From a virus, in the IMG/VR virus record IMGVR_UViG_3300034782_000022, positions 1 through 23,191 of that record: a stretch of 23,191 nucleotides of DNA, one strand, 5' to 3'. The position numbers and the translations under genes are program-made. The notes under the pieces are model-generated. The model was not told the DNA's origin. It did no database searches and saw only the letters and a list, made by a program, of their open reading frames with translations. This document shows positions 2,512-21,423 of the stretch, piece by piece. The number at the start of each line of letters is the position of its first letter. Positions within the stretch are counted from its first letter, which is position 1.

Positions 2512-2512
2512 C

Positions 2513-4066
2513 TTAGAGCTCCTCGTCGTTGAGCACGATGTCCTCCGGAGCAAGGATCAGGGCCTGGGTGCCGACATTCGGCCCGCGCTCTCCTGGGATG
2601 GGGTTGTAGTATCCGATCTGGAGCTGCGCCCCCCCGAGCTCCGTCCAGTCGATCACCTCCGCGATGATCTCCTTGTCGTTGAGGAATCCCTGGCCGATGT
2701 CCTTCTCGATCCAGTTGCCGCCGAAGAAGGTCCGGCCCTTCGCGGTGACGAGGACCCAGTAGATGTTGGCACCGAAGTCCTGGAACCAGTTGATCTCGTT
2801 CGGATACTGAAACCAGTTCGTCCCATCCCCGCCGCCAGTCTCGCGCCAGATATACCAATGCCCCATCGGTGTCGCTGGGTCGAAGAGGACCGCAAACAGT
2901 CGGCCCACCCTGGAGAAAAACAGGCCGCCCGACGTCTCCCCGCCGCTCCACTCGTATTGGAAGGTGGGGTCGCCCCCGCCGACGGCGGTGAAGATCCTGG
3001 GTCCGAGCCACCCGGCCCCGGAGGGTTCGCTCGAGATGATGAACACCCTGCCGGCGAACGAGTAGAGGTCGTTCACGTTCAGGACGTAGGGCGCGGTCCT
3101 GGGAGTCCAGGTGCCGCCCACCGCGTCCAGGTGGTAGGCCACCGTGGAGGTGTCGCCCACGTCCGTTCCGATGGCGTAGACCCCGATCTCGTTCACCGTG
3201 CAGAGGCGAAGCTGGTGTGGCGAGCCCACGTCGAGACTCTCCTGGACCGTGGTCCCGTCGAAGTCGAAGACCTTGCCGTCGTGTCGGGAGATGAACAGGT
3301 GCTCCGCGATCTGCTCCTGGCCTGTGACGGGGTCGTCGGCCCGGGCGAAGACGGTCACCATGTCTCGGGCCGCCTCGCCCTCCTCGCTGAAGTCCGTGAT
3401 CTGCCAGAGGTCCTGGTATAGGTCGTAGTCCGCGAGCGGGGCCTCCTCGTCGTCCGGGAGCTTCACCTCCCACAGGCACGCCCAGGTCTGGATCGCCCCC
3501 GGATCCAGGTCGTTCGGGTTCTCCGGGTCGAGCCGGGTCCGGGTGCCCAGGTGCAGGAGCCGCTTCCGGTACTTGATGAGAGCGACGTAGGAGCCCTTGA
3601 GGACGGTGTAGCCCCATCGCGGAAACGGAACCTCCACGGCACCCGGACTCGGCGGCGGGGCGGTGCCGTAGTTGTAGGTGCGGAACTCGTTGCGCTGGGG
3701 GCCGGTGGTGCCGGCGGGGTTCTCGTAGAGCCCGGACTTCGTCTCGTTCCAGTTTGCCAGGATTCCCCCGTCCGGGAAGTTGGGGGTGGGGCTCGTGGGC
3801 GTGAGCCAGAGCCCGACGCCCACCTCGTCGATCTCGACCATCCCGGTGATGCAGCCCTCCTCCTCAGCCTCGTGCTCCGGGAACAGCAGGCCCGGTCGGT
3901 CGATCATCCCCGCGGGGGTGAGGCGCACGTTGGTGAGGAGGTGGAACTGATCGTCCGGGATCGAGGAGGGGTCCGCGGAGCGGTTCATGCCGCGCAGCCG
4001 CTTGAACTCGGCTCCGGGCCGGATCTCGAACGGGCCTACGCCCTGGTCAGGGGTTCGCCGTGGCAT
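2513..4066 (-). CDS. Tail protein, beta-propeller/nozzle-like (first of two)
   Basis: 517 aa. The ATG at 4066 has GGAG about 8 nt upstream. The N-terminal segment, residues 26-59 (GMNRSADPSSIPDDQFHLLTN...MIDRPG), is the characteristic opening of podovirus tail tubular B or nozzle-type proteins: a 'GxN...ipd.q...l.NV......~~~RPG' pattern in which a list of tail strands begins. The rest is rich in short beta strands with repeated G-x-W/Y and F-x-F-D-G-T elements (for example FDFDGTTV), consistent with propeller blades. It sits between the head-tail adaptor and a second propeller protein, and its stop lies one base from the next start, so the two are probably translated together. Whether this one or its neighbour is the true nozzle cannot be decided from sequence alone. 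Confidence 0.7.
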   Translation of the reverse strand: MPRRTPDQGVGPFEIRPGAEFKRLRGMNRSADPSSIPDDQFHLLTNVRLTPAGMIDRPGLLFPEHEAEEEGCITGMVEIDEVGVGLWLTPTSPTPNFPDGGILANWNETKSGLYENPAGTTGPQRNEFRTYNYGTAPPPSPGAVEVPFPRWGYTVLKGSYVALIKYRKRLLHLGTRTRLDPENPNDLDPGAIQTWACLWEVKLPDDEEAPLADYDLYQDLWQITDFSEEGEAARDMVTVFARADDPVTGQEQIAEHLFISRHDGKVFDFDGTTVQESLDVGSPHQLRLCTVNEIGVYAIGTDVGDTSTVAYHLDAVGGTWTPRTAPYVLNVNDLYSFAGRVFIISSEPSGAGWLGPRIFTAVGGGDPTFQYEWSGGETSGGLFFSRVGRLFAVLFDPATPMGHWYIWRETGGGDGTNWFQYPNEINWFQDFGANIYWVLVTAKGRTFFGGNWIEKDIGQGFLNDKEIIAEVIDWTELGGAQLQIGYYNPIPGERGPNVGTQALILAPEDIVLNDEEL

Positions 4067-4084
4067 CTCGGGGGCTCCAATTCA

Positions 4085-5026
4085 TCAGTAGGTCGGCCTT
4101 CCGAAGAAGGAGGGCAGCTGCCGGAACTCGCCCTGGAACCGGCCCTCCTCGCGCTTCATGTCCATGAGGGCCTTCTGGTAGGCGGCGAACATCGCCTGCC
4201 AGCGGGCGTCGCCCTTCGACTCGCGGGACTTGGCCTTCAGGCCGGGGATGATGACCAGTTGGTGGTACTGCTCCGGGATCTCCTTGATCCGGTCGACGTG
4301 GCCGGTCAGGTCCACCACGGGCCCGGCCCCCTCGGGCACGAGGGTGTCCGCGGAGCGGCCCTGGATCGGCATGGCGTTCGCCGTGACCGTCCCGGTGATC
4401 TCGAACTCCCCGTTGTTCTCGTCGTTGGCGAACCCGGAGATGGTGACCGCCCTGGCGTTGAGGAACTGGGTGGTGAAGTCCGTCGTGACCGAGGTGAGGG
4501 TCGCCCGCCGCCCGGAAACCGCGGTGACGGCGACGTCGACCAGGCCGAAAAGTCCGACGACCTCGTCGATGAAGGCCGGGTTCGGCTGGTACTGGACGGA
4601 GAGCTCGAACTCGGCGTTCGTGGGCGGGACCTGGAGCTGCGAGATGTTGGCCGCGTCCTGGCCGAAGATGGCGAAGATGTGCGGCGGCGAGCTGCGGTAG
4701 TCGCTGGCCCGGAGGTCCAGGATCACCGACTCCGGGACGAACTCGAGGCGTCGCCCGTCTCCAGAGCCGGCGATGGGGTAGTAGACCCCGCCGTACCAAC
4801 CGATGGAGGCGAAGTCCGAGGGAAGGGAGGCCGTGCCCGGCCCGATCGGAACCGTGACCGTCGCGCTACGTCGCTTGAACGGCCAGTCGCGGGCCCACCA
4901 GACCTCGGCGTGAACCTCCCGGAGGTACTCCAGGATGCGCTGACGCCGCTGGGCGTTGTGGGCCGCGCTCTCGGCCACGTTGTCGTCCCGGGAGACGACC
5001 TGGTCGATGATCTGTGTGACGTTCAC
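4085..5026 (-). CDS. Head-tail adaptor (tail tubular A / gp4-like) with inserted beta module
   Basis: 313 aa, GTG start at 5026 behind a strong GGAAGGAGG. The adaptor ring joins the portal to the short tail. The evidence is the helical N-terminus followed by residues 31-72 (LEYLREVHAEVWWARDWPFK, then a beta strand and SLPSDFASI), a pattern typical of phage adaptor proteins: 'L..l...y.ei....dWpf', then 'LP.DF'. The helical C-terminus (residues 265-300, KSRESKGDARWQAMFAAYQK) is also typical of the family. Residues about 154-236 interrupt the fold with a beta-rich module (NDENNGEFEITGTV, then LVPEGAG) that resembles the small 'ndGtftI...E.ag' domain seen in various phage structural proteins. The location directly before the tail propeller genes supports the call. 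Confidence 0.75.
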   Translation of the reverse strand: MNVTQIIDQVVSRDDNVAESAAHNAQRRQRILEYLREVHAEVWWARDWPFKRRSATVTVPIGPGTASLPSDFASIGWYGGVYYPIAGSGDGRRLEFVPESVILDLRASDYRSSPPHIFAIFGQDAANISQLQVPPTNAEFELSVQYQPNPAFIDEVVGLFGLVDVAVTAVSGRRATLTSVTTDFTTQFLNARAVTISGFANDENNGEFEITGTVTANAMPIQGRSADTLVPEGAGPVVDLTGHVDRIKEIPEQYHQLVIIPGLKAKSRESKGDARWQAMFAAYQKALMDMKREEGRFQGEFRQLPSFFGRPTY

Positions 5027-5044
5027 GGCCCTCCTTCCCGGTCA

Positions 5045-5860
5045 TCAGGAGGCTTGTGCTCCCTCCTGCTTGACCTTCAGCTTGTCGATCACGAGCTCGA
5101 CCATCTCGGTGTCGTTTTCCAGGAGTCCGGCGAGCTCGGTGCGCGTGAGTTTGACGCCGGCCTCCTTGGCCTCGTGGTAGAGCCGGATGTTCTTCTCGAC
5201 TTCCTCATCCGGGATGTCCACCGGTACCGTCTCCACAACAGGCGGTGCGGTGTCGGTCTCGGGCGACGGCGGCGCGGCCCCGCTCAGGACGGCCTTGATC
5301 TGGTCCGCGCCGTACTCCGGGCGGTCGGCCTTCCGGCCAGGTCGGGACAGGTGCTTCATCGCCCAGGCGACCTGTTCGGCGCTCGAGCTCTCGGGCGGGT
5401 CCTGCCCCTTGTCCCGGAAGCCCTTCTGGCGCTCCATCTCCGTCGCCAGGATCTGATGAGCCCTCGCGTCCTCGGCGGCCTCGTAGCGCGGGAGGGCGTC
5501 GTCCATCGCGACGCCGATCTCGCCGGGCTCGGACACGATCTGGAAGCCTCGCTCGAACAGCGTCTGCCGGTCCCTGTCGAGGAAGCGGCAGCAGGCGTCC
5601 ACGTCGAAGGTCTTCGAGTAGCCGCCGTCCGGGGTCCGGCTGAGGATGTCCTTGACCACGATGGTTCCGGGCACGGCGCGTCCGTTCCCGTCCTTCGCGG
5701 ACTCGAACCGGTACATGCTTCCCGGCCCCACCTTGGCGACCTCGTGGCGCGGGGGGACGTAGAAGATGAACCCGCTGTACTTCAGCTGCAGCGGTCGCTC
5801 GCCGGCCCACACGAAAATCTGGTTCTGCTCTCTATTCCAGAGCCTCTTGATTGGCCTCAT
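5045..5860 (-). CDS. Hypothetical virion-module protein, acidic C-terminus
   Basis: 271 aa. The start is the ATG at 5860, which overlaps the previous stop as TAATG and has AGGAG 6 nt upstream; the longer open frame to 5902 lacks such a site. Residues 1-120 look mainly beta (FVWAGERPLQLKYSGFIFYV; PGTIVVKDIL). Residues 120-175 are helical, residues 196-220 form a Pro/Thr/Val/Glu-rich linker, and residues 218-265 form a two-helix segment (EEVEKNIRLYHEAKEAG...) of a kind that can act as a small protein-binding domain. No family is recognised. Its position between the LamG-like protein and the adaptor suggests a head completion or virion-associated role, which is only an inference. Confidence 0.75.
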   Translation of the reverse strand: MRPIKRLWNREQNQIFVWAGERPLQLKYSGFIFYVPPRHEVAKVGPGSMYRFESAKDGNGRAVPGTIVVKDILSRTPDGGYSKTFDVDACCRFLDRDRQTLFERGFQIVSEPGEIGVAMDDALPRYEAAEDARAHQILATEMERQKGFRDKGQDPPESSSAEQVAWAMKHLSRPGRKADRPEYGADQIKAVLSGAAPPSPETDTAPPVVETVPVDIPDEEVEKNIRLYHEAKEAGVKLTRTELAGLLENDTEMVELVIDKLKVKQEGAQAS

Positions 5861-6564
5861 TACTGACTCCTGGAGGGGGCGACCCTCCCGTATGTCTCCC
5901 ACGGGGTCCGGGGCGACCGGCCCGCCGCTTTCCCGACTGCGACCATCGGCTTAGGCTCCTTGCGTTCCGGGACCGGCGTGCCCTCGCGCAGCGCCTTCTC
6001 TCGCGCCGCGTGCCAGGCCGCCAGCTTCTCCCAGTCCGCCTCCGACACCTTCTCGAGCTGCTTCAAGATCCACGGCTCGATCTGCCTCTTCCGATACTCG
6101 ATGTCCTCCTCGTGCTCCTTCTGCAGCTTCGCGATGATGTCGAAACGCTTCCGGAGACGCTTCAGGTACTCCCCCTCCTTGATCCGGTCGAACTGCTCGC
6201 GGCACCAGCGGTAGACCCCCCAATCCCAAGGGATGTACTCGCCGGGCCCGCCCATCTTGTAGCTCAGGCAGTAGTTGTCCTCGAAGATCGCGTCGAGGAA
6301 GTTGGGGGCCTCGAAGTCGGCACCCGCCGGCATCTCGACGCGAAACGGACGGCGAACGTAACGCGGGACCGGGTAGTACCTCCCGATCCCGTGATGGACG
6401 AGCTTCCGCTCGACCCTGTCGGGTCCGACCCAGAGGCTCACCCTCCAGATGGGGATGAGCCCCGGGTCGAACTCGCGGATGGCAGCCGTGACCGCCGGGT
6501 CCACGTCGAACCCAGGTGGTGCGACACAGGTGATGCGCTCTGCTCTCCATACCCAGCTGTCCAC
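5860..6564 (-). CDS. Hypothetical virion-module protein with C-terminal coiled coil
   Basis: 234 aa. The start is a GTG at 6564 preceded by a run of seven G about 5 nt upstream (MDSWVWRAERITC). The open frame extends far upstream, but only inside the preceding gene. Residues 1-120 hold a compact domain with conserved-looking aromatic and turn residues (PIWRVSLWVGPDR, GRYYPVPRYVRRPF, GGPGEYIPWDWGVYRW). Residues 122-195 are strongly helical and charged, compatible with a coiled coil. No family is recognised. Its stop is fused to the next start (TAATG), so it is probably co-translated with the following unknown protein. Both lie between capsid and adaptor genes. Confidence 0.72.
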   Translation of the reverse strand: MDSWVWRAERITCVAPPGFDVDPAVTAAIREFDPGLIPIWRVSLWVGPDRVERKLVHHGIGRYYPVPRYVRRPFRVEMPAGADFEAPNFLDAIFEDNYCLSYKMGGPGEYIPWDWGVYRWCREQFDRIKEGEYLKRLRKRFDIIAKLQKEHEEDIEYRKRQIEPWILKQLEKVSEADWEKLAAWHAAREKALREGTPVPERKEPKPMVAVGKAAGRSPRTPWETYGRVAPSRSQ

Positions 6565-6587
6565 GGCTACCCCCCCTTGGTTGCCGA

Positions 6588-7610
6588 CTACGGGATCTGC
6601 GCGGTGAAGATGACCGGCCCGGCGTCGACCAGGCCGTCGTTGCAGAGGATGTTGGCCTCGGCCTCCTGGATCTCGGTGTCGACGTGGTGCAGCCGGTAGT
6701 AGCTGAACTGCTTGTAGTCGATGACCCCCTCTCCGGTGGTCGTGATCCACCACATGAACGGCAGGAGGATCTTGTCCGCGGGGAAGGCGAAGTTCGGCGG
6801 GCCCGGGAGCTCGTCGCCGTTCACCCAGAACCCGCACCGACCGTCCTTCTCGATGCAGGCCAGCTCGATGCACTTCTCGAGGTCCCCGCCCGAGACGCTG
6901 AGGCTCTTGACCGAGGGCGCGGCGAGCGGGTCGCCGCCGTTGAGCGTCGGGGTCCTGCCCTCGACGTCGAGGTTGAACAGGTCGACACCGTCCGACACGA
7001 ACCGGAGGCAGGCGTAGTCCTCGTAGTTCGCGTAGAAATCGGTCCAGAACTTGAGGGGGTCGAGGTCGGCGGGATACGCCCGGACGCCGAAGACGAGCGA
7101 GACGGTTCCGGGCTCCGCGAGCACCTCTGCCAAGAACTGGGCCATCCCGACCTTCATCTTCGTCAGGAAGCCGCGGTTGAGGGCCTTGCCGACCTTGTGA
7201 GCGAACCGTCCCGGCCACCAGGTGATGGTGTCCTGCGCGGAGTTGCTCCCCATCGCGTCCGTCCAGAGATGCTGAACGCCCGATTGGGGATCGCCCGCGG
7301 TCAACATCGGGAAGCCGTAGGGGGACAGCGAGAACCCCTGGTCGAACCCCACCCCGCTGGGAACGTCGCGGGTCGCCACGTTGTGGTTCTGGAACCCCAT
7401 CATCACGCCGGCCCCGGGGACGATCTCGGCGTAGAAGGGGGCAGGGAAGTCCCCGGGGACCTTCTGGGTCCAGTTTCCGGTGGTGAACTTCTCCTCGACC
7501 ACCAGGCCCTCGAGGATCTCCTTGTCGAGCTTGAACCCGACGATCCCCGAGTCCCGAACCGAGCGGGACGTGATCCCCCCGGTGTTCTTGATTCTGCTGA
7601 GAAGCGACAT
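6588..7610 (-). CDS. Virion protein with concanavalin/LamG-like domain (putative capsid decoration)
   Basis: 340 aa. The ATG at 7610 has AAAGGAGG about 9 nt upstream, which rules out the longer open frame that begins inside the intergenic hairpin region. From about residue 150 to 308 the alternation of beta strands, the turn 'GRCGFWVNGDELPGPP' (residues 257-272) and the final strand 'GVIDYKQFSYYRL' (residues 295-307) resemble a LamG or ConA-like jelly roll, in which 'vdG' type turns and a terminal 'D.v.fy...' strand are common. Residues 1-60 may form an extended attachment arm. It is the first gene after the major capsid protein, the usual place of decoration or cement proteins. The fold assignment is from pattern only; it could be a different beta-sandwich. 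Confidence 0.65.
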   Translation of the reverse strand: MSLLSRIKNTGGITSRSVRDSGIVGFKLDKEILEGLVVEEKFTTGNWTQKVPGDFPAPFYAEIVPGAGVMMGFQNHNVATRDVPSGVGFDQGFSLSPYGFPMLTAGDPQSGVQHLWTDAMGSNSAQDTITWWPGRFAHKVGKALNRGFLTKMKVGMAQFLAEVLAEPGTVSLVFGVRAYPADLDPLKFWTDFYANYEDYACLRFVSDGVDLFNLDVEGRTPTLNGGDPLAAPSVKSLSVSGGDLEKCIELACIEKDGRCGFWVNGDELPGPPNFAFPADKILLPFMWWITTTGEGVIDYKQFSYYRLHHVDTEIQEAEANILCNDGLVDAGPVIFTAQIP

Positions 7611-7645
7611 GGTGTGCGTCCTCCTTTCACCCCTTGCGGGGAACT

Positions 7646-7674
7646 CCGTGGGGGGCCATGTCAGCCCCCCACGG
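7646..7674 (-). terminator. Perfect 11-bp hairpin after the capsid gene (attenuator/terminator candidate)
   Basis: CCGTGGGGGGC (7646-7656) and GCCCCCCACGG (7664-7674) are exact reverse complements separated by a 7-nt loop. It lies 36 nt beyond the capsid stop codon and 36 nt before the next start. There is no clear U-run after the stem, so it may attenuate or protect the RNA 3' end rather than be a full intrinsic terminator. Confidence 0.6.
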
Positions 7675-7679
7675 GGCAC

Positions 7680-7692
7680 CGACGTTACGTCG
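7680..7692. repeat. 13-bp palindrome beside the capsid hairpin
   Basis: CGACGT-T-ACGTCG is a perfect 6+1+6 palindrome between the capsid stop (7710) and the GC hairpin. It could be a protein-binding site or part of a larger RNA structure; its function is unknown. Confidence 0.4.
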
Positions 7693-7709
7693 AGATCACC
7701 ACCAACCCA

Positions 7710-8996
7710 CTAGGGGATCGGGGAGATCGGGTCCTGGAGGTTCTCCAGGCGGGCCGAGGCCCGGGGCATGGTGTTGATCTGGTTCTCCACGCAGCCCACA
7801 TACGCGAGGAACCCGGCGCGGTGACCGCCCGCGGTGGGGATCATCTTCAGCAGCGCGTCGTCGTCGATCCAGTCGACGTCCATCGACGTGTAGCGCCCGA
7901 AGACCTCCCAGGCCAGGAAGTAGATGCGCCGCGGCTCGATGTCGGTGTCGACCTCGAGCTTGACGTTGATCCCGGGGGCGATGATCTGGAGCGAGTCCTC
8001 GTCGTAGCCCACGGTGTAGCGAGGTGCCGAGCCGGTGGGCCCGGGGTAGCGGCGCTCGGCCTGGATGAACTCGACGTACTTCCGGGCCTGGCCGGTGTTG
8101 GTGAGGGCCTTGCTGATCCGCTTGCCGGTCTCCCGGAACGGGAGGTCGATGGTGTTGAGGATCAGCTGCTCCGTCAGATCGTTGCCACCCGCGTCCTCGA
8201 CGAACGCATTGAGCTCGGGGTACGTCGCCCGCGACTGCCCGAAGATCAGGGCGGTGTCGGAGGCGTCCCCGACGATCATCGAGAGGGTCCAGATGGACCG
8301 GCCCGAGGTGTTCTCGATGTAGATTTCGTCACCGGCGGCCACGGTCGGGTCGTCCGCGCCGTCGTAGACGATGGTCCTGGTGTCGCGGGTGAGCACCGTG
8401 ATGGTCTGGGACTGGAGCGCACGAAGCGCCCCGCCCGGAGCCTTGGCGTCGATCCGCATGTTCCGGTTGAGGAGCTCGGCCCCGAGGGGCTTGTTGAGCA
8501 CCAGGGTGTTGGCGGGCGTGAGGTTCGTCTCCACGGTCGCCAGGACGCCGCCGCCGACGTTCACCGGATCGGCGTTGCCCTGGGACCCGGCGTACACCTT
8601 GTTGATGTACTTGCCGAGCTCCGCGACGGTGTTCTCGACGCGGTCGGCCATGATGCCGCCCTGGTTGAAGGTCCCCTTCTTGGACTTCGCCGCCACCTTC
8701 GTCTTGACGCCGATGGAGAAGGAGCCCACGAACAGCTCCGGGGTCACCTCGCCCTGCACGCGGACGGGATCGACCGGGGTGGGGAACTCGCCGATGTCGG
8801 GGATCATCCCGACGTTCCAGGACGACGCGATGCCCAGGGGGAACCGGGCGATGCCTTCGTTCATCACCAGGTCGACTCTCTGGATGTCGCGACGGTACTT
8901 CGACATCTTGTTGACCGGCTCCTCGAAGGTGCCGGGGGGATACGCGTTCTTCAGCTCGGTGGTGATGTCCTCGAACGCGCCAGCTGGGGTTGCCAT
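7710..8996 (-). CDS. Major capsid protein (HK97-fold type, inferred)
   Basis: 428 aa, ATG at 8996. The position directly after the acidic coiled-coil scaffold, between the portal/terminase block and the tail genes, is the standard place of the major coat protein. The sequence supports this. An N-terminal helical arm (residues 8-45, ITTELKNAYPPGTFEEPVNK...) is followed by a long beta/alpha body with 'GIARFPLGIASSWNVG', a helix around 'NTVAELGKYINKVYAGSQGN', a loop-rich middle and a C-terminal beta region 'DTDIEPRRIYFLAWEVFG...VDWIDDDALLKMIPTAG'. Such proteins build the icosahedral shell. The length is within the usual range for coat proteins without a protease domain. The fold is inferred, not demonstrated. 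Confidence 0.82.
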   Translation of the reverse strand: MATPAGAFEDITTELKNAYPPGTFEEPVNKMSKYRRDIQRVDLVMNEGIARFPLGIASSWNVGMIPDIGEFPTPVDPVRVQGEVTPELFVGSFSIGVKTKVAAKSKKGTFNQGGIMADRVENTVAELGKYINKVYAGSQGNADPVNVGGGVLATVETNLTPANTLVLNKPLGAELLNRNMRIDAKAPGGALRALQSQTITVLTRDTRTIVYDGADDPTVAAGDEIYIENTSGRSIWTLSMIVGDASDTALIFGQSRATYPELNAFVEDAGGNDLTEQLILNTIDLPFRETGKRISKALTNTGQARKYVEFIQAERRYPGPTGSAPRYTVGYDEDSLQIIAPGINVKLEVDTDIEPRRIYFLAWEVFGRYTSMDVDWIDDDALLKMIPTAGGHRAGFLAYVGCVENQINTMPRASARLENLQDPISPIP

Positions 8997-9017
8997 TTGT
9001 TCCTACGCCTTACGCCC

Positions 9018-10217
9018 TCACAGGTTCTTCGACGCCAGGTACTGTCTCGCCCTGAGCATTGCCGGAGTCTGATCGGACGTTCCCATGAGAGACGCAGGGA
9101 CAGGCTTTCCCGGACCGCCCTTCGGCGGCGCGGACGGGGCCCGCCCGGTCACAGTACGCTTCGCCCTCGAACGCTCGTTGAAACGCTGACGCACGGCGAT
9201 ATCCCGGTCCTCCAGGTACTCCTTGACGTACCCCTGGATCATGGACGGCACATCGACTTCCTCGATGCCCTGCTCGCCCAGCCTGTAGAGGTCGACCATC
9301 ATGGCCTGGTTGACGTGCTTCCAAAGACCGCGACGAATCTTCTGGTCCTTGGGCGCCCCGAGGGCTTCCGCCTCGCGGGAAATCTGTGCGTCTACGAACT
9401 TCGGGAACTCGGCGTTGAACTGCTCCCTTCTCTGCGACTCGGCTTCGTGTGCTTGCGCCTGGTTCTTGTAGACGTTCTGGGCCCAGTCCCGGTCCTGGAG
9501 GAGGCGTTCCATGTCGTAGGACATCTGCTGCCGGCGATCATCGAGGTCTTGGTACCGCTCCACGATGGTCGTTCGCTTCAGCTGTGCCGCGTCGAGTCGT
9601 GCCTCCAGGAGCCCAGCCTTGTAGTCGTCCCCGCTCTCCTTCGCGATCTCGATGTGCGCCTCGAGCTTGGCGATGGACTTGTCGGCCTCGGCGAGCGAGA
9701 CGAGCTGCTTCTGCTGGGTGGCCTGGACCTGTTCGTCCTTCGTAACCAGCGCCTTGATGCGCGTGTCGAGCTTCTCGATGTGGGGGTTCGTTGGAGGCGC
9801 GTCGGGTTCTTCGTCAGCGTCGGGCGTCTTCGCTCCAGAAATGCGTGCGAGCTCGGCCCGGGCTTCCTCGTTCTCCTTCCGTACCTGGGCGGCGTAGTTG
9901 GTCTTGTCCCACCACGCACGCCCCATTGCAGCCCTGCGGTCACGGGGATTCTTGATGTGCTGGAACTTCTGCTCGAAGTTCGTCCAGGCTTCGTCTTCGT
10001 CGTCATCCCCGCCGGCTGCACCCTCATCGGGCCCGTCGCCCAGGTCGTCGTCCGAGGGCGTCTCGAACTCCTCTCCGGGCTCACCGGCTTCTCCACCGTC
10101 GAAGTCGCCGGGCTCATCACCGGGGGTCGACCCCGGCTGCTGGAAGTCGTCTCCAGCGTCAGGCGTGCCTTCGTCCGAGGGCGGCTCGGCGGGCACGTTC
10201 GATTCTTGGGACATCAT
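9018..10217 (-). CDS. Capsid scaffolding protein
   Basis: Up to 399 aa. Two ATGs are adjacent; the second, at 10214, lies 6 nt from GGAGG and is the better-spaced start, giving 398 aa. Residues 1-75 are extremely acidic (Asp/Glu/Gly/Pro). Residues about 110-125 and 147-265 are Glu/Lys/Gln/Ala-rich and predicted coiled coil. Residues 338-375 are basic and then Pro/Gly-rich, ending RARQYLASKNL. An acidic, elongated helical protein with a basic tail directly before the coat gene is the signature of a scaffold that assembles the procapsid and then leaves or is degraded. No protease domain is visible in it. The family is inferred from composition and gene order. Confidence 0.8.
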   Translation of the reverse strand: MMSQESNVPAEPPSDEGTPDAGDDFQQPGSTPGDEPGDFDGGEAGEPGEEFETPSDDDLGDGPDEGAAGGDDDEDEAWTNFEQKFQHIKNPRDRRAAMGRAWWDKTNYAAQVRKENEEARAELARISGAKTPDADEEPDAPPTNPHIEKLDTRIKALVTKDEQVQATQQKQLVSLAEADKSIAKLEAHIEIAKESGDDYKAGLLEARLDAAQLKRTTIVERYQDLDDRRQQMSYDMERLLQDRDWAQNVYKNQAQAHEAESQRREQFNAEFPKFVDAQISREAEALGAPKDQKIRRGLWKHVNQAMMVDLYRLGEQGIEEVDVPSMIQGYVKEYLEDRDIAVRQRFNERSRAKRTVTGRAPSAPPKGGPGKPVPASLMGTSDQTPAMLRARQYLASKNL

Positions 10218-10255
10218 CTACCTCCGGGGGACGACCCCGTGTTGATCCGAAAGTT

Positions 10256-10279
10256 GAGTCGTATGTTACCATTCGACTC
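10256..10279 (-). promoter_or_regulatory. Inverted repeat framing a possible extended -10 promoter before the scaffold gene
   Basis: GAGTCG (10256-10261) and CGACTC (10274-10279) are perfect 6-bp arms around a 12-nt loop. Read on the minus strand the loop contains TGGTAACAT, an extended -10-like element (TAACAT, 4 of 6 matches). No convincing -35 is seen. The 115-nt gap 10218-10332 between the GroES-like and scaffold genes is otherwise occupied by C/G runs near 10290-10320 and the scaffold ribosome binding site. It is a weak candidate for an internal promoter that boosts scaffold and capsid expression. Confidence 0.3.
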
Positions 10280-10332
10280 GGGCCAGAAACCCCGTGGGGG
10301 TGGGGGAGAGGTCCAGACAGACCCCCCTACCC

Positions 10333-10650
10333 TCACGCTACTTCCTCCTCCTCGGCCTTCTTCGGCCACCTCCAGGCCAGGATCTCGTCCTCCCGGAGGA
10401 TCACGAGTTCCGGGTTTCCGTCCTGGAGCTCGACGCCGCCGAACTTGGAGAACATGACCTCCATGCCGCGCTCGATCTGGAGCCGCGCCAGGTTGCCGGT
10501 CACCGAGGGCCGACCCCGGCCCGTCTCCAGGACGACGCCGACGTTCTTCTCCTGCTTCGCGGCCTCGGGGACGACCGTCGCCCCGATCATCTCGTCGGGT
10601 GCGTGTCGCCTCACCAGGATCTTGTCGTACAGGACCTGCCAGTTGCCCAT
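10333..10650 (-). CDS. Phage GroES-like co-chaperonin (Cpn10 family)
   Basis: 105 aa, close to the normal 95-110 aa of Cpn10 proteins. The ATG at 10650 follows a G-run site 4 nt upstream. The chain follows the GroES pattern throughout: residues 7-16 (LYDKILVRRH) match the first strand 'l.DrvlVkr'; residues 17-32 (APDEMIGATVVPEAAK) correspond to the mobile loop with the hydrophobic triplet that docks onto GroEL (TVV in place of IVL); VGVVLETGRGR (37-47) matches 'gevlavG.Gr'; GMEVMFSKFGGVEL (62-75) matches 'Gd.V.f.kyaG.ei'; and ELVILREDEILA (81-92) matches the terminal strand. It would cap host GroEL during coat protein folding, like T4 gp31. It lies just before the scaffold and coat genes. No GroEL is encoded here. 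Confidence 0.85.
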   Translation of the reverse strand: MGNWQVLYDKILVRRHAPDEMIGATVVPEAAKQEKNVGVVLETGRGRPSVTGNLARLQIERGMEVMFSKFGGVELQDGNPELVILREDEILAWRWPKKAEEEEVA

Positions 10651-10658
10651 GAAACCCC

Positions 10659-11309
10659 CTATCCTCTGAACCACTTGTAGAGCTGCATGTACGGGATGCC
10701 TCCGACCCCTCCCGCGCCGCCGCTCGGGGCCGGGGGCCCCAGGGGAACGGGCGGTGTCGGTGGGGGCGGGGGCGGCGGTGCCGCCGTTGCCGGCGGTGTC
10801 GGGATCGCGCCCGGGGGCGCGTACTGCGGGTAGACCTGGCCCTGGGTGGGCAGGCCCACCGGGCGCTGCGGGCCCACGGCGGGCCTGGCCCGCCTGGAGA
10901 GCACGTTCGCCGCGCCCCGGACCCCGGCGACACCCCCGGCTACCGTTACCGGGTCGGAGATCGCCGTGCCGAGGAGCCGCGCCGCCTCCGCGGCCTGGAT
11001 CGGGAGATCGGTGTCTCTCTCGACGGCCTCGCCCAGGAGCTCGCCGTAGCCCGCGGGGCGCTGGCCCGTCTCCGGGTCGTAGCCGTAGAGGATGTAGTCG
11101 AGGGGGTCCCCCTCCCACGCGCCCTCCGAACCCTCGAGCTTGCCGACCTCGTGACCCGCCGCGGTCACAGCTCGGGCCGGCATCGTGGCGACGTGGGCGG
11201 TCGCGTCCAGACCCGGGGCCGCGGCGCGGAAGCCGCGCTCGGCCACGCGCCCGATCCCGGACATCACCTCGTCGAACCAGGTGCCCCTCAGGTCTTCCCT
11301 CAGTCCCAT
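10659..11309 (-). CDS. Hypothetical protein with proline-rich C-terminal region
   Basis: 216 aa, ATG at 11309. Residues 1-135 are Ala/Gly/Glu-rich and probably helical (GIGRVAERGFRAAAPGLDAT; a possible weak hydrophobic segment around residues 118-132). Residues 140-190 are a low-complexity Pro/Ala/Gly tail with a run of seven Pro, and the chain ends YMQLYKWFRG, an aromatic/basic tail that could be a docking peptide. No family is recognised. It lies between small packaging-module proteins and the GroES-like gene, in the interval between portal and scaffold where phages often carry small head or ejection proteins. The function is not assigned. Confidence 0.65.
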   Translation of the reverse strand: MGLREDLRGTWFDEVMSGIGRVAERGFRAAAPGLDATAHVATMPARAVTAAGHEVGKLEGSEGAWEGDPLDYILYGYDPETGQRPAGYGELLGEAVERDTDLPIQAAEAARLLGTAISDPVTVAGGVAGVRGAANVLSRRARPAVGPQRPVGLPTQGQVYPQYAPPGAIPTPPATAAPPPPPPPTPPVPLGPPAPSGGAGGVGGIPYMQLYKWFRG

Positions 11310-11313
11310 CGGT

Positions 11314-11436
11314 CTAACCCTTCTTCATCGACTGCATGATCGCGTAGGCCGCGTCCTTGCAGCTGCGCCCCTTCCGGGGCTTGAGCTTCCCCGACCGGCA
11401 TTTCGCCATCAGGGCCTTCTTCTGAGCTTCGGGCAT
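11314..11436 (-). CDS. 40-aa basic small protein
   Basis: MPEAQKKALMAKCRSGKLKP begins the chain, which has 11 Lys and 2 Cys and ends MQSMKKG. The ATG overlaps the preceding stop as TGATG (11436), and the stop is four bases from the next start, so it fits the coupled layout of the module. Such short Lys-rich reading frames occur near portal genes in many phages; the function is unknown. Confidence 0.6.
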   Translation of the reverse strand: MPEAQKKALMAKCRSGKLKPRKGRSCKDAAYAIMQSMKKG

Positions 11437-11873
11437 CAGTTCCTCGATTTCAGAGCGTCGAAGGCTGCGCCCGGGCTGGCCCGGGTCAGCCGCAGCTTGC
11501 CAGCGACTCCGCGACGAATGCTGCGGCGGCGTTGCTTCGTCTCTTCGTAGTCGCGCCGGGCGCTGGCCTTGTCCTCCTCGTGGTATTCGGCCAGAACGTC
11601 TTCCTGGGATTCGTCGCTTCTGAACGGCTCCTCTCGGCCCGGGCGCGGAGCTCTCTCGATTGCCCTTTCGGTGCGGGCGATGGTTCGGTCGATCTCGGCG
11701 GTTTCGGCCTCAGTCTGACGCTCGCTCTTACTTCTCGAGCCCCTGGCAACCTTTGGGCGGCGCTTCTTCAGGCGCTCGAGGTACTCCTTTGAGCCGCCGA
11801 CGTTGATGTCGTCGCTGGTTCGCATTCGCCGCTCGTAGCGGCCCCAGGGCGTCCTCTTGGTGACCTCTGCCAT
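11436..11873 (-). CDS. Highly charged hypothetical protein
   Basis: 145 aa, ATG at 11873. The chain is dominated by Arg, Lys, Glu and Asp with almost no hydrophobic core: residues 30-60 are basic (RLKKRRPKVARGSRSKSER), residues 54-75 form a likely coiled coil (EAETAEIDRTIARTERAIER), and residues 85-125 alternate charges. It ends GAAFDALKSRN. This composition suggests an extended or disordered protein that binds DNA or other virion proteins; no family is recognised. It is coupled to the following 40-aa gene (TGATG) and lies 6 nt from the preceding one. Confidence 0.65.
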   Translation of the reverse strand: MAEVTKRTPWGRYERRMRTSDDINVGGSKEYLERLKKRRPKVARGSRSKSERQTEAETAEIDRTIARTERAIERAPRPGREEPFRSDESQEDVLAEYHEEDKASARRDYEETKQRRRSIRRGVAGKLRLTRASPGAAFDALKSRN

Positions 11874-11879
11874 TGGCCC

Positions 11880-12206
11880 CTACTCCATATAGCCGACCGA
11901 CTTGAAGAACGCCTCCTTGCCCATCGAGCCCTTGGCCCCGGGGGTCCGGCACGCCAGGGCGTGCGCGGCCTCGGTCGCGGAGAACCGTCCCCGCCGCCGC
12001 TTGGAGTTGATGCGCTTGACCTCGCGGGCCAGGTTCTTCCCGGGCGGCATGATGTTCGAGTAGTCGCTGATCTCGTTGCCCGTGACCCGGTCGTAGCCCT
12101 TCCGGTGCATGGCGTCCGGCTCGCGGTCATCGTTGATCCCGGGTGTCTTGGCCCCCTTGACCTTCATGTTCCCCTGGTACGGGGGACGCGACAGCTTGCC
12201 CTTCAT
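11880..12206 (-). CDS. Small basic hypothetical protein downstream of portal
   Basis: 108 aa, ATG at 12206 with a strong GGAGGAG 4 nt upstream, right after the portal stop (12216). The chain is rich in Lys, Arg and Gly (MKGKLSRPPYQGNMKVKG). Residues 58-75 are helical and basic (LAREVKRINSKRRRGRFS), followed by TEAAHALACRTPGAKGS. No family is recognised; basic proteins next to the portal may line or plug the portal vertex or bind DNA, which is speculation. Confidence 0.65.
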   Translation of the reverse strand: MKGKLSRPPYQGNMKVKGAKTPGINDDREPDAMHRKGYDRVTGNEISDYSNIMPPGKNLAREVKRINSKRRRGRFSATEAAHALACRTPGAKGSMGKEAFFKSVGYME

Positions 12207-12215
12207 CGTCTCCTC

Positions 12216-15014
12216 CTACTGTGGGGGCGGCGGTGCCCCACCTCCGGGCGGTGCGCCTCCGGGCCCACCGGGCGGTGCGGGAGCGCCCATCGCGCTCGCC
12301 ATCGCCGCCTGCTGCTGCTGGAGGCGGTACGACTCGATCACGGCTCTCATCCGGACCAGAAGGTCCAGGACCACGAACTGCTCCTGCGAGGGCTGCATGG
12401 CCTCGACGGCCATCGCGGCGCGGGCCCCCAGGAGCCCCTGCTTAATCGAGGGGTTCAGCCGCATCCAGACCGCGGCGATCTTCTCGTTCAGGGCCTCGGG
12501 CAGGAACGGCTGGACCGGAGGCTTCGGGAACTCCTGCATCGGCGGCGGCTCCGGGGGCGGCGGCGGCATCTCGCCTCGCTCCTGCGCCGACACGGACAGC
12601 TCCTGCCAGGACTGCTGGGCCTTCATGTGCGCGTCCATCGACTTCTGCACGAGGTCGCTTCCGGCCTGGTAGATTTGCTCCCACGTCGCCGGGTCCTGGG
12701 CTCCGTAGATCGCCTTGATCGGGGCCTCCTGGGCCTCCATCTCGGCCATCTTCTGCTCCCAGTTGGCGAGGCTCGGGAGGACGTCGCGCCACCCGGCCTT
12801 CTCCTGGAGGATGTAGCACTCGTCGGAGAACCACCGCTTGCCCAGGACCGCGTACCACGTCATCGGGTCCTCGATGGAGTAGTCGGGGATGTGGACCTTC
12901 TGCAGCCGCATGAAGTCGGACCACGCCATCTCGGCCCGCTCGACCTGGATCGTCTGGTTCTCGTTGACGTCCTTGGGTAGCTTCATCAGGTCGAGGATGC
13001 GGTCGATGGCCGCGGGGCTGTCGAGCTTGTAGAGCCCCATCTGGAGCGCCTCGCCGGCGGCCTCCTTGTTGTAGAGGGTCTGATCGTAGCCGGCCTCGGC
13101 CTCCATCTTGACCCTCATGTCGCCCAGGAGGTCCGTCCCGGTGAAGGACTTCTCCTCGTAGACCCCGCCCTCGCTCTTGACCTCGTAGGTGGCGTCCTCC
13201 TTCCGGAACGCCCAGGTCATCTGGAGGATGTGCTGGAAGGCCGACTCGTACATCTCGGTCAGGGCCCGCTCTCGAGGAGCTCGCTTCTGGCTCGCCTCCT
13301 CCGACAGGAGCATCAGGCCCGACGTGGTCTTCACGGAGCCGGGGGCCTGGCCGATCTCGATGTCCTGCGGCGCGCCGACCAGCTGCATGTCGTTGAGGAT
13401 GTCGGTGCGCTCGGACCCGTAGACGTTCCCGGTGATCGGCATTCCAGGGAAGATCCCCATGCGGGGCTCCCAGGCCGGATTCGGCGAATCGTAGTTGATG
13501 ACCGTGAGCGACCCCTGGACATCGTCCCGGGTGTAGAGCTCGGTCCCCTCCGGGGTCCACATGTTCGGCTTGCCGCGCTCCCGAAGGTCCACCACCTGGG
13601 CATCGAGCTCGTTGAGTCGGCGCTGCAGCGGGATCAGGTCGTCCACGAACGACCGGCCCCAGAAGTTGCGGGGGATGCGCTTGAACCGGGCGAAGTGGTA
13701 CTTCACCCGCGGGACCTGGGTCCAGCCCTGCTCGCCCTGGACGTCCACCACGAGCTCGCGCCGGGCCACCTGTTCGCCGCAGACCGCGAACTGGACCCCC
13801 CGTTCGAGGCCCTTCACGTTGGGCCGGGGGAGGATGACGACCTCCTTGAGCCGGGCGTGGTTGTAGAACGCCTCGAGGCCCGTCGAGAGGTTGTAGCCCA
13901 GGAAGCCCGACAGGATCGGCTCGGCGTAGAGTGGGTTGAGCCGGATCAGATCCTGGGCCGACTCGGGGGCGAGTTTGTCCTTGAACTCCGGGAAGCGAAG
14001 CGCGATGAACTCCAGCTCGCGGACGCATTGGCTCATCCAGATCGTCTGCTCGTGCGGCTCGACCGAGATGCCGCCGTTCTGCGGGAAGAACTCGTGGACG
14101 GTGAGCACGTCCATGAGCGGGTTGCCCCGGGGCACCAGAATCCCGATTTCCCGCCCGAAGGCGTCCTTCTCCAGGGCCTCCTGGGGGTTGACCGGGTACT
14201 CCTTGAGCTCCTGGGCCGTCTCGCAGAATGGGCAGAGTTGCATCTCCACCATCGCGATGCCCTTGGGGTGGACCGCGGAGGCTTCCCCGGACGGCATCTC
14301 CGAGGGCGGGATGTCGCGGAGCGTCTCCGCGTGCCGCATCTCGAGCGGGCCCTCCTCCTCGCCCCCGGGCATCCCGAGAGTGGCGAACGATCGGGGCACC
14401 TGGGGGGAGGCGAAGACGCGCCCGCACCCGTCGCACCGGCGCGAGTCCTCCGGGGCGATCAGCTCCGTCTCGACCTCGTTCTCGTCCCAGTAGGTCCGCA
14501 GCTGGGAGTTCGAGTCGATGCAGAGGTTGAAGGCGACCTCGTCGCGCTTCTCGCCCCACATCTGCTTTGTCATCTCCCAGCGGAGGATGTCCTTCGCCAG
14601 GCGGGCCGCGGCCATCCACTCGGGCTGGTTCTTGCCGGCGGTGGCCGCGGGGACCAGCTCCTTCCGGCTCAGGCGGGCGACCTCGTTGTCCACCGAGGGC
14701 CCGATGTAGTTCGACACGGGCCGCGGGAAGGCCGACCGGCTCTGGCGGTAAATCTCCTGGAAGTGGTAGACCCCGTTCCCGGGCGCGAGCTCGGAGCGCG
14801 GCTCGATCCATTGCCGGCCCATGTAGAACCACAGGTTGAGCGACGCCCGCTGCGTGTGGTAGCGCCGCCGGTGCGACATGGGGTTGACGTGGCGCTGAAT
14901 CCAGTCCAGCACCTCCCGATCCTCGGAAAGCATCGTCGGCGTGCCGACCCAGTCGGGCTGGCCCGCCGCCGGCTTCCGGAGGCCGGTGTCGAGAGACGAG
15001 GCAGGAAGGACCAT
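12216..15014 (-). CDS. Portal protein (large, with inserted split zinc ribbon)
   Basis: 932 aa, ATG at 15014 immediately after the upstream TAG. It forms the dodecameric ring through which DNA enters. The call rests on its size, its position directly after the terminase, and portal-like segments: an N-terminal helical region, 'DVLTVHEFFPQNGGISVEPH' (302-321), a wing/stem region with 'RNFWGRSFVDDLIPLQRRLNELDAQV', and a C-terminal helical barrel ending in a Pro/Gly tail (about 905-932). It is longer than P22-type portals (about 725 aa). Part of the difference is an insertion at residues about 190-270 holding C194xxC197 and C261xxC264, the halves of a zinc ribbon separated by an acidic loop. The call is strong by gene order and moderate by motif. 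Confidence 0.82.
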   Translation of the reverse strand: MVLPASSLDTGLRKPAAGQPDWVGTPTMLSEDREVLDWIQRHVNPMSHRRRYHTQRASLNLWFYMGRQWIEPRSELAPGNGVYHFQEIYRQSRSAFPRPVSNYIGPSVDNEVARLSRKELVPAATAGKNQPEWMAAARLAKDILRWEMTKQMWGEKRDEVAFNLCIDSNSQLRTYWDENEVETELIAPEDSRRCDGCGRVFASPQVPRSFATLGMPGGEEEGPLEMRHAETLRDIPPSEMPSGEASAVHPKGIAMVEMQLCPFCETAQELKEYPVNPQEALEKDAFGREIGILVPRGNPLMDVLTVHEFFPQNGGISVEPHEQTIWMSQCVRELEFIALRFPEFKDKLAPESAQDLIRLNPLYAEPILSGFLGYNLSTGLEAFYNHARLKEVVILPRPNVKGLERGVQFAVCGEQVARRELVVDVQGEQGWTQVPRVKYHFARFKRIPRNFWGRSFVDDLIPLQRRLNELDAQVVDLRERGKPNMWTPEGTELYTRDDVQGSLTVINYDSPNPAWEPRMGIFPGMPITGNVYGSERTDILNDMQLVGAPQDIEIGQAPGSVKTTSGLMLLSEEASQKRAPRERALTEMYESAFQHILQMTWAFRKEDATYEVKSEGGVYEEKSFTGTDLLGDMRVKMEAEAGYDQTLYNKEAAGEALQMGLYKLDSPAAIDRILDLMKLPKDVNENQTIQVERAEMAWSDFMRLQKVHIPDYSIEDPMTWYAVLGKRWFSDECYILQEKAGWRDVLPSLANWEQKMAEMEAQEAPIKAIYGAQDPATWEQIYQAGSDLVQKSMDAHMKAQQSWQELSVSAQERGEMPPPPPEPPPMQEFPKPPVQPFLPEALNEKIAAVWMRLNPSIKQGLLGARAAMAVEAMQPSQEQFVVLDLLVRMRAVIESYRLQQQQAAMASAMGAPAPPGGPGGAPPGGGAPPPPQ

Positions 15015-15272
15015 CTACTCGATCTCCACCTTGTCCTTCGGGCGCATCGGGTCGGGCTCGTAGCCCGGGAAGTACGACGGCCTCTGCCCCCGAAGGCCCG
15101 TGTGCGCCTTCGGCTCCACGGATCGTGGCCCCCTTTCGGCCTTGTCCACTCGCCAGGCCGCGCCGGGGTCCGCGAGCTCGAGGAGCCGCTTCTGCGCCTT
15201 GTCGAGCTGCTCCCGCAGGAACTGGAGCTCGCCGTCCTTGGCCCGGCACGCCCGGCACTCGAACAGAGCCAT
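15015..15272 (-). CDS. Small CxxC and coiled-coil protein between terminase and portal
   Basis: 85 aa. The ATG shares a base with the terminase stop (TGATG at 15272), and the TAG abuts the portal ATG, so all three are translationally coupled. The chain starts MALFECRACRAKDGELQFLR with one CxxC pair (C6, C9), then an amphipathic coiled coil (residues 14-33), then a basic/Pro segment ending KDKVEIE. With a single CxxC per chain, zinc could be bound by a dimer. Its place suggests a terminase or portal accessory factor; this is inference. Confidence 0.7.
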   Translation of the reverse strand: MALFECRACRAKDGELQFLREQLDKAQKRLLELADPGAAWRVDKAERGPRSVEPKAHTGLRGQRPSYFPGYEPDPMRPKDKVEIE

Positions 15273-16831
15273 CAGATACCCCCTCCCGACATGACCTCGT
15301 AGCCCTCGCGCTGGCGCTGCTGGTGCTTGATCTTCTCGTTGATCTTGCCCCGGAGCTCGTGCCAGAGGAGCTCGCGGTTGTTCGTCGGCCTCAGGTTCCG
15401 CTTCTCCCGCTCCGTGAGGTTCTCGTGGGCCCAGCCCTTCGGCATGAGGTACTCGATGGCCTGGACCATCGCGTCCACCGTGTCGTCGTGGGCCCCGTGC
15501 GGGAACTGCGCGGCCTCGTCCACCAGGACCGAGGAGTACGCGCGGTTGCGGGGCAGGAAGACCTGGCCGCGCTCGATGATGGCGCTCACCGAGTTGACGC
15601 CCCAGGTGAGCCGCACCTCCTTCGACCGGGACCTCGTCCCCACCGGGACGATCCCCTGCATCTCCCGTTGAAGGATCTGCATGATGGCGAAGCCGGACGC
15701 CGAACGCTCGATCAGCTTGAACTTGGCCTGCGGCCACAGCTCGGTCATCGCCCGGATGGCCCGGAGAGTGTCCGGCGTGTTCATCCGCTGCCGCACGGCG
15801 TCGAGGTAGTAAAACTCGTTGCCGCGCCGGCCCCAGACCTGGCCGACCACGAAGTCCGAGGTGTCGGCGTCATCGAACGTCGGGTCCCAGGACTGGATGA
15901 TCTGGTCGCATTGCTGCGCGATGGCGGACGGGTCCTCGTCGTACCACTTCCACCAGAGCCTCTGGATCGCCGCGCCCTCGGGTGCGGTGGGCCGCTGCTG
16001 GTAGAGGGCGTTGAAGGCCCTCGAGCCGACCTCGGCCTTCTTCGTCTCCAGGGCGAGCTCGTCGAAGCGTTCGGCCCACAGGGCCTGCCCCGGGGCCCGC
16101 CCGAGAATGTCGTCTCCGTCTTCGGCGATCGCCGGGAAGTTGACGATGTCCCACAGCTTCGCCTCCGGGCTGGCGAGGATGCGCCCGGCCAGGTCGTCCT
16201 CGTGCCACCGGGTGAGGATCAGCACGATGACGGCTTCGCGGCCCTGGTAGTCCGGATCGGTACGGGTCAGGAAGACCTTGGTCCACCACTCCCAGAGGTT
16301 CTCGCGGATGACCGCGCTGTTCGCCTCCTCCGCGTTCTTGATCGGGTCGTCCAGGATGAGGACGTTGCCGCCGCGCCCCGTAACGGGACCGCCCACGCCG
16401 GCGGTCACCATCCCGCCGCCCGCCGAAGTCTCCCAGCGGTTCGCCGCCCGGGAGTCGTCCAGGATGCGGGCCCCCAGGAGGGGGTAGTGTTCCTGCACGG
16501 AGCGCCGGGCCTTGCGTCCCCAGCTCGCCGCGTAGCTGGCCTCGTAGGACGCCAGGATCACCTTGTGCCTGGGGTCCAGGGCCAGGAGCCAGACCGGAAG
16601 CCAATGGCTGCACAGCTCGGACTTCCCGTGGCGCGGCGGCATCGTGACCATGAGGCGGCGCTTGCCGCCCGGGGGCCTCGAGACGAGCTCGACCAACTTG
16701 TTGGAGAGGTGGTGGAGGTGCGGGGCGTAGTCGTAGGGATTCGGCATCCCGTCCGTGGCCGTGATCGCCAGAGCCAGGGGGCTCAGGAGATGGGCGAACT
16801 CGGCCTCGGGGAGCTCAGCCGGTCTGCTCAT
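15272..16831 (-). CDS. terL: Terminase large subunit (packaging ATPase/nuclease)
   Basis: 519 aa. It drives DNA into the prohead with an N-terminal ATPase and cuts concatemers with a C-terminal RNase H-fold nuclease. Visible motifs are the Walker A-like MPPRHGKSE (residues 64-72), a Walker B-like VLILDDP (157-163, D161/D162), a coupling-type motif LTRWHEDD (206-213), and nuclease acidic residues in QSWDPTFDD (D316), LIERSASG (E375) and HDDTVDA (D449, D450, D453). The length is typical for phage large terminases. The start at 16831 overlaps the upstream candidate small terminase by 17 nt, the usual TerS-TerL arrangement. All the key residues seen are intact, so the protein should be functional. 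Confidence 0.95.
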   Translation of the reverse strand: MSRPAELPEAEFAHLLSPLALAITATDGMPNPYDYAPHLHHLSNKLVELVSRPPGGKRRLMVTMPPRHGKSELCSHWLPVWLLALDPRHKVILASYEASYAASWGRKARRSVQEHYPLLGARILDDSRAANRWETSAGGGMVTAGVGGPVTGRGGNVLILDDPIKNAEEANSAVIRENLWEWWTKVFLTRTDPDYQGREAVIVLILTRWHEDDLAGRILASPEAKLWDIVNFPAIAEDGDDILGRAPGQALWAERFDELALETKKAEVGSRAFNALYQQRPTAPEGAAIQRLWWKWYDEDPSAIAQQCDQIIQSWDPTFDDADTSDFVVGQVWGRRGNEFYYLDAVRQRMNTPDTLRAIRAMTELWPQAKFKLIERSASGFAIMQILQREMQGIVPVGTRSRSKEVRLTWGVNSVSAIIERGQVFLPRNRAYSSVLVDEAAQFPHGAHDDTVDAMVQAIEYLMPKGWAHENLTEREKRNLRPTNNRELLWHELRGKINEKIKHQQRQREGYEVMSGGGI

Positions 16832-19101: not shown

Positions 19102-19464
19102 ATGGCAGCCAAGAAGACGCGCCCGAGCCGGGCCACGGTGATCGAGGAGGTTTCGGACGCCGATGCGAACAAAGCCAGCTACCAGCTGGTCCGGCGTCGC
19201 CAGGGGGCCAAGCCCTCAGCCGCTGCCTCCGAAGCCGCACGCCTGATGCAGCGCCGCCGCTCCGCTCAACAGACGGTCGAGGAGCGGTCGGAGATGATGC
19301 GGAAGGCGGCGACGGCCTACTGGAAACGACTGACTCCAGCCCAACGCAAGCTGGAGGCCCGCAAGCGCGCGAAGAAGCGGGCAGCCAACCGCCGGGCCCG
19401 CATTCGGGCAAAGCTCAAAGGGGGTAGTGGTGGGAGAGATTCCGGAGCCGGGGGCCTACGCTGA
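19102..19464 (+). CDS. Small Arg/Lys-rich protein at the head of the early module
   Basis: 120 aa, taking the ATG at 19102; an in-frame TTG at 19084 is the alternative. There is no Shine-Dalgarno in front of either, which agrees with leaderless translation. The chain begins MAAKKTRPSRATVIEEV, and residues 60-110 are extremely basic and helical (RRRSAQ..., KLEARKRAKKRAANRRARIR). Nucleic-acid binding is plausible from composition, but no helix-turn-helix is recognised. It is the first gene after the palindromic control region and overlaps the exonuclease gene by 38 nt, so it might be a regulator or a histone-like early protein; both are guesses. Confidence 0.65.
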   Translation: MAAKKTRPSRATVIEEVSDADANKASYQLVRRRQGAKPSAAASEAARLMQRRRSAQQTVEERSEMMRKAATAYWKRLTPAQRKLEARKRAKKRAANRRARIRAKLKGGSGGRDSGAGGLR

Positions 19465-20269
19465 CGTTTCGTTCGACGACTATGCGGCCTGGCCGGCAGT
19501 AAACCACTCCATCCTGCGCCACTTCCGGAAGACGGCGGCGCACGTTCGGCACGAGATGGAGAGCCAGGACGAGTCCTCGAAGCACCAGGAGCTCGGGCGG
19601 GCGGTCCACACCGCCGTGCTCGAGCCCGGCAACTTCGAGAGCGAGTTCGTCGTCAAGCCCAAGATGGACCGGCGCACCAAGGCGGGGAAGGCCGCCTGGG
19701 CCATGTTCGAGAAGGAGGCCGCGGGCCGAAAGATCCTCACCGAGGAGGAGTGGGCGATCTGCGACGGGATTATGAAGAACATCGAGAAGCACCCGACCGC
19801 CCGGGCCTTCCTCCGGGGCAAGGGGGTCAACGAGCTGTCCCTTCTGTGGCGGGACCAGGAGTTCGACCTCCTCTGCAAGGCCCGCCTGGACCGACTCCTG
19901 ATCTTCGAGGGCCACCCGTACATCCTCGACGTGAAGACGATGCACAAGCCCGCGTCCACGCACGCCTTCCAGGTATCCGTGGAGTCGTACCAGTACCACT
20001 CCCAGGGGGCCTTCTACCTCCGGGGGGCCCAGCAGCTGCAACCCGCCGAGCGCCGCTTCGCCTGGCTGGCCTGCGAGACGGAGCCGCCGCACCTCGTTCG
20101 CCTGTTCGATGCCGACGACGAGGCGCTCAAGATCGGGGCCGACGAGGTGGCCTCGTGGCTCCAGAGGTTCAAGGAATGCACGGAATCCGGTACCTGGCCG
20201 GGCTGGGGAGACGGAATGGATATCGCCGGGCTCCCTCCGTGGGTGATGAAGCGGTTCAATATTGAGTGA
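19427..20269 (+). CDS. RecE-like exonuclease (PD-(D/E)XK superfamily)
   Basis: 280 aa, GTG start at 19427 (a second GTG at 19430) behind AAAGGGGG. It resembles the exodeoxyribonuclease VIII (RecE) / DUF3799-like nucleases that resect double-stranded ends 5' to 3' to give annealing substrates. Core pattern: LGRAVHTAVLEP with H61 (residues 57-67), NELSLLWRD (E136), CKARLDRL (D155), YILDVKTM (D168, K170), and ESYQYHSQGAFYL (Y190, Q193, Y197). The N-terminal 'YADVSFDDYAAWPAVNHSILRHF' pattern is also typical of the family. All catalytic positions are present. The next gene codes for a probable annealing protein, completing a RecE/RecT-type pair for phage recombination and repair of replication ends. 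Confidence 0.85.
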   Translation: MVGEIPEPGAYADVSFDDYAAWPAVNHSILRHFRKTAAHVRHEMESQDESSKHQELGRAVHTAVLEPGNFESEFVVKPKMDRRTKAGKAAWAMFEKEAAGRKILTEEEWAICDGIMKNIEKHPTARAFLRGKGVNELSLLWRDQEFDLLCKARLDRLLIFEGHPYILDVKTMHKPASTHAFQVSVESYQYHSQGAFYLRGAQQLQPAERRFAWLACETEPPHLVRLFDADDEALKIGADEVASWLQRFKECTESGTWPGWGDGMDIAGLPPWVMKRFNIE

Positions 20270-20280
20270 GAGAGGCTCAG

Positions 20281-21309: not shown

Positions 21310-21423
21310 CGTGGCCCCCCTCTCGGGGGAGGTGGCGGGCTTGTCCTGCCCTCTCTCACCCGCCGGCCCCTCCAGCCGGTGCCTCGCAGCGGGGAGTCCG
21401 TCGCCTCCTCCGAGGGGGGGACC
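21310..21423 (+). other. Intergenic gap with GC-rich hairpins
   Basis: The 114-nt gap begins with CCCCC-TCTC-GGGGG (21316-21329), 6 nt after the annealing-protein stop, and also holds CCGGC...GCCGG (21363-21379). A ribosome site (GAGGGGGGG) precedes the ATG at 21424. Without U-runs these are at best weak terminators or RNA-stability elements; no promoter is convincing. Confidence 0.4.

Follow-up and report, generated by a model that had tools for sequence, protein, structure and literature searches.

Most of what is known about which phages supply a GroEL lid of their own, and for what reason, comes from T4. Its gp31 is a proven phage lid needed for the capsid protein; it is without a roof and has a longer mobile loop, which results in an enlarged cage for the ~56 kDa coat protein gp23 (PMC6318259). 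GroES has previously been seen in both myoviruses and podoviruses, and in the Pseudoalteromonas siphovirus B8b it also lies among structural genes; that phage is long-tailed, and its GroES sits close to the tape measure gene (PMC4294664). The co-chaperonin is among the 13 core genes in 82 genomes of HTVC023P-type podophages (PMC9599517) and is marked in CRP-901-type phages (PMC10149686).

Our reading of individual records places GroES between the portal and a scaffold-sized gene, before the capsid, in CRP-901, HTVC023P, Pag-Yong1, RW, DSL-LC04, ctpbd312, and ct2G2228. Named carriers are the Roseobacter phages CRP-901/902, Planktothrix phage Pag-Yong1, Caulobacter phage RW, phage DSL-LC04, and Podoviridae sp. 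ct2G2228; by record classification, ct2G2228 belongs to Podoviridae and ctpbd312 to Siphoviridae. The neighbors of GroES in Caulobacter RW are mostly annotated as hypothetical, and a 304-aa protein there matches capsid families. Where searched, the scaffold-like gene of the published GroES podophages was PHROG 28737.

The DNA analyzed here is a virus record of 23,191 bases, taken at its full length and referred to as the window. A Cpn10/GroES co-chaperonin gene of 105 aa (11.8 kDa) occupies positions 10333–10650 on the minus strand, with the ATG at 10650 and the stop ending at 10333. The original prediction gave the coordinates exactly and was silent on the strand. The Cpn10 profile search that it proposed returned PF00166 far above the cut-off (E 6.7e-14, 52.1 bits against 21.1), with residues 5–92 aligned to model positions 3–91 of 93 and thus approximately the whole domain, as had been claimed. 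PHROG 3188, “co-chaperonin GroES”, also matches (E 1.2e-8), and a sequence search of the PDB gave Cpn20 and GroES chains as the best hits (E 2.1e-13 to 1.4e-11). An AlphaFold2 monomer model based on 18 relatives reached a pLDDT of 87.2 and contains the GroES beta-barrel on which the original prediction depended. GroES structures rank highest when this model is searched with Foldseek (best E 8.8e-8; TM to target mostly 0.70–0.85). By family and monomer fold, the product is a true Cpn10/GroES homolog. It has the whole-domain match, fold, mobile loop, and roof hairpin in common with bacterial GroES (PF00166) but differs in that it is not paired with groEL, has an altered triplet in the mobile loop, and falls in a clade of its own with a long stem.

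The head block lies entirely on the minus strand and reads, in the order of transcription, large terminase, portal, three unassigned genes, GroES, an acidic 399-aa protein, major capsid protein, and tail/virion genes. The large terminase (519 aa, 15272–16831) matches phrog_38 with E 5e-106 as well as PF17289 and PF03237, and the portal (932 aa, 12216–15014) was identified through the head-tail adaptor family phrog_332 (E 2.6e-6) and a weak tblastn match to annotated portals. Directly upstream of GroES is a 216-aa protein with no function assigned (10659–11309), whose stop comes 8 nt ahead of the ATG of GroES. On the other side, the GroES stop is separated from the next ATG by a 115-nt gap (10218–10332) which can fold into stems (z -2.2 vs shuffles) and has no promoter or terminator consensus on the minus strand; it might serve in mRNA processing or in setting expression. 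The 399-aa protein that follows (9018–10217) has a pI of 4.7 and an acidic N-terminal tail, and no named family was found for it in PHROG and Pfam searches. Its composition, its conservation in relatives, and its position, which in relatives is always immediately ahead of the capsid gene, make it a putative scaffold. The major capsid protein comes next (428 aa, 46.5 kDa, 7710–8996; phrog_14242 major head protein, E 3.1e-13). A PDB profile search with this protein gave no matches, and its AlphaFold model, based on 13 relatives, had a pLDDT of 40, too low to judge an HK97 fold. Followed in the direction of transcription, GroES is directly upstream of the scaffold and coat genes, as the original prediction stated.

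The phage had also been called apparently short-tailed, and the gene content points the same way. An SU10-type tail adaptor, a hallmark of short-tailed phages, is encoded at 4085–5026 (minus strand, 313 aa; PF24175, 39.2 bits against a cut-off of 27), and a virion protein at 310–2553 (minus strand) matches internal virion protein families (phrog_511, E 1.2e-8; phrog_3287, E 1.5e-7). Together with the T7-type portal family phrog_332, these point to a short-tailed phage, as far as genes alone can tell. Neither a tail tube nor a tape measure was found among the proteins searched, which were a subset of the genes in records that may be incomplete.

The order terminase, portal, small genes, GroES, scaffold-like gene, capsid, tail adaptor is common to the window, the HTVC023P-type pelagiphages, and others. 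The original prediction offered T4 gp31 and RB49 CocO as precedents and missed the already public short-tailed phages whose GroES occupies this slot too. What the window does share with these two is a GroES-like lid gene, with no GroEL found in the phage and the capsid protein as the proposed client. Like the window, the HTVC023P-type/CRP-901-like group carries a GroES of PHROG 3188 in the slot between the portal and a pre-capsid scaffold-like gene. The remaining head genes differ, as that group has a capsid of PHROG 371 or related and a portal of PHROG 1216, whereas those of the window belong to 14242 and 332, and no similarity was found between the window capsid and that of CRP-901. The GroES proteins of the group also form a separate clade, in which the I-V/I-L triplet is mostly kept and the roof segment is unlike that of the window clade. 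The best tree separates the two podophage GroES groups; a common origin was tested and was neither supported nor rejected (p-AU 0.30). The window is a new lineage of the GroES-before-scaffold arrangement already known in podophages.

Relatives of the window were retrieved via the capsid protein, making the sample unbiased towards GroES. Seventeen contigs were obtained, two of which start too late, within the scaffold gene or beyond it, to be informative on GroES. All 15 records that reach past the scaffold have a Cpn10 gene upstream of it, although some are near copies and about 13 lineages are distinct, and wherever the portal is included, GroES sits between portal and scaffold. The placement beside the head genes is thus conserved across the lineage. 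Spacing varies, as GroES directly follows the portal in L012, with the scaffold ~3.5 kb further on, and several kilobases separate GroES from the scaffold in the L013/L014 record. Five further contigs found through GroES have the same gene order as far as they extend.

The GroES gene is under purifying selection, with dN/dS of 0.08–0.31 in six close pairs. Eighteen phage GroES sequences group in a single clade that excludes the bacterial GroES sampled, with support of 100/98 and 100/100 in two trees, and this clade has a long stem branch. A single phage clade set apart in this way favors one old acquisition followed by vertical descent, as judged from the trees.

The mobile-loop segment comprises residues 14–38 (RRHAPDEMIGATVVPEAAKQEKNVG; 10537–10611, minus strand) as delimited by alignments, and model strands together with alignment to E. 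coli GroES place the roof beta-hairpin segment, kept as in GroES, at residues 44–57 (GRGRPSVTGNLARL; 10480–10521, minus strand). For loop and roof we aligned against what we take to be the E. coli GroES sequence. In this alignment, I25-V26-L27 of E. coli GroES is matched by T25-V26-V27 in the window protein, so the TVV triplet that had been reported is present, and so is the mobile loop; the triplet, described as hydrophobic, starts with a polar T. Among the 18 phage relatives, only the window protein has T at the start of the triplet, where the others have L, I, M, or V; the middle residue is A, V, E, D, or K, and the last is V, with a single I. In the 81 bacterial sequences sampled, the first and last residues are each I or L, and the middle one is mostly I. 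The counterparts of I25 and L27 have largely stayed hydrophobic in the phage triplets, and in some relatives the middle residue is charged. From this variation, the change is partly a trait of the lineage and partly peculiar to the window phage, and an altered triplet characterizes the whole phage GroES clade. That a loop of this sequence could shift the affinity for GroEL, as the original prediction suggested, is plausible. The T at the first position here and the charged middle residues of some relatives make binding to any particular GroEL uncertain.

Such changes could also be expected if the Cpn10 fold had been reused as a virion or assembly component making no contact with GroEL, and that no host is known is compatible with this. 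The retention of loop, roof, and domain length, the low dN/dS, and PF00166 matches above cut-off in all nine phage records searched make a former co-chaperonin very improbable.

A stronger version of the explanation we favor is that the altered triplet and the roof variants suit the GroEL-lid pair to this particular capsid better than host GroES would, as for gp31 and gp23. The lineage-wide change of the triplet, the long stem branch of the phage clade, and the shortened roof segments of three relatives speak for this. Roofs reminiscent of gp31 occur in the GroES of L007 (7304–7582), L014 (9389–9679, minus strand), and L036 (8001–8282), while most of the clade retains the full roof. The window protein itself has neither of the gp31-type features, as its roof is kept and its mobile loop, at 22 residues, is no longer than that of E. 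coli GroES, which has 23 when delimited in the same way; in some relatives the loop reaches 25. The capsid protein, at 46.5 kDa, is smaller than the ~56 kDa gp23, and gp31 is a weak structural match to the GroES model, at rank 39 in the Foldseek list (E 0.22). A coat protein in need of a T4-like specialized cap, as the original prediction suggested, is not supported by the data, and we consider a lid tailored to this capsid possible but doubtful. With three gp31 features unmatched, an extra supply of lids, or a lid fitted to the host GroEL, is at least as likely as a specialized cap.

No Cpn60/GroEL match was found in nine phage records, which include contigs of 66.8 and 61.5 kb and may be incomplete, and the same search gave a match in 14 of 14 control genomes. 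The phage protein, if it works as a lid, must therefore rely on the GroEL of the host, which it most likely caps. One viral contig (L042), in which a bacterial-type groES is directly followed by a GroEL frame (7932–9897), was set aside; this region is either host DNA or a phage carrying both genes.

The capsid protein had no relatives in cultured phages or in the bacterial genomes searched, and hence no host was assigned. A search of bacterial genomes with GroES found groES genes, many of them adjoining groEL and none adjoining phage genes of the window type. By identity, the nearest cellular GroES sequences were from Myxococcota (Myxococcales) and Acidobacteriota (Acidobacteria), in a sample biased by the search patterns that does not allow a host call. 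Extra GroEL copies occur in both phyla. This would suit a phage that provides more GroES, or a lid that chooses among host GroEL copies, for late folding in general and with no special tie to the capsid, and the GroES-like features kept in the model and in the Foldseek matches are in line with it. The slot before scaffold and capsid, which is fixed throughout the relatives and recurs in podophages whose capsids are of other families, points to head assembly instead, and we regard a purely general supply as unlikely.

The reading we prefer, with a probability of about 0.72, is that the protein is a true GroES of the head-morphogenesis block, acting as a heptameric lid on host GroEL and helping to fold one or more head proteins. 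Going by its family, it would form a seven-subunit lid and bind host GroEL through the mobile loop, and its expression would be late. Lid and GroEL together would help fold one or more abundant head proteins encoded in this block. The constant position of the GroES gene ahead of scaffold and capsid points to a head protein as the client, foremost the capsid protein, which the neighborhood makes the most plausible candidate; the portal, the scaffold, and the 216-aa protein are encoded as near to GroES. The phage would then be supplying an ordinary GroES alongside its head proteins and not a cage-enlarging lid of the gp31 type.

Tentatively, GroES may have been recruited at least twice to the pre-scaffold slot, in podophages with different capsid and portal families, and the lid retuned here for its own capsid or for a particular host GroEL; we think this rather unlikely. 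If true, podophages would have resorted repeatedly to a dedicated GroEL lid for assembling their heads. With a GroES fixed ahead of scaffold and capsid, and with other capsid and portal families, this second podophage lineage provides a comparative set for testing the link between lid and capsid, and the full-roof and short-roof variants within one lineage are natural test cases for the cage-size idea.

Outside the head block, the plus strand of the window carries an Exonuclease VIII-like and RecT-like pair (19427–21309), a phage recombination module on the strand opposite the head genes. It is followed by a replication protein (21379–22449, plus strand) with an N-terminal DUF1376 and a C-terminal DnaA N-terminal domain. 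The 66.8 kb contig of one relative (L132) contains a single open frame of 4552 residues (1480–15138, minus strand), a giant polyvalent phage protein with a strawberry-notch-like helicase region, a weak RadC-like stretch, and a C-terminal match to internal virion proteins.
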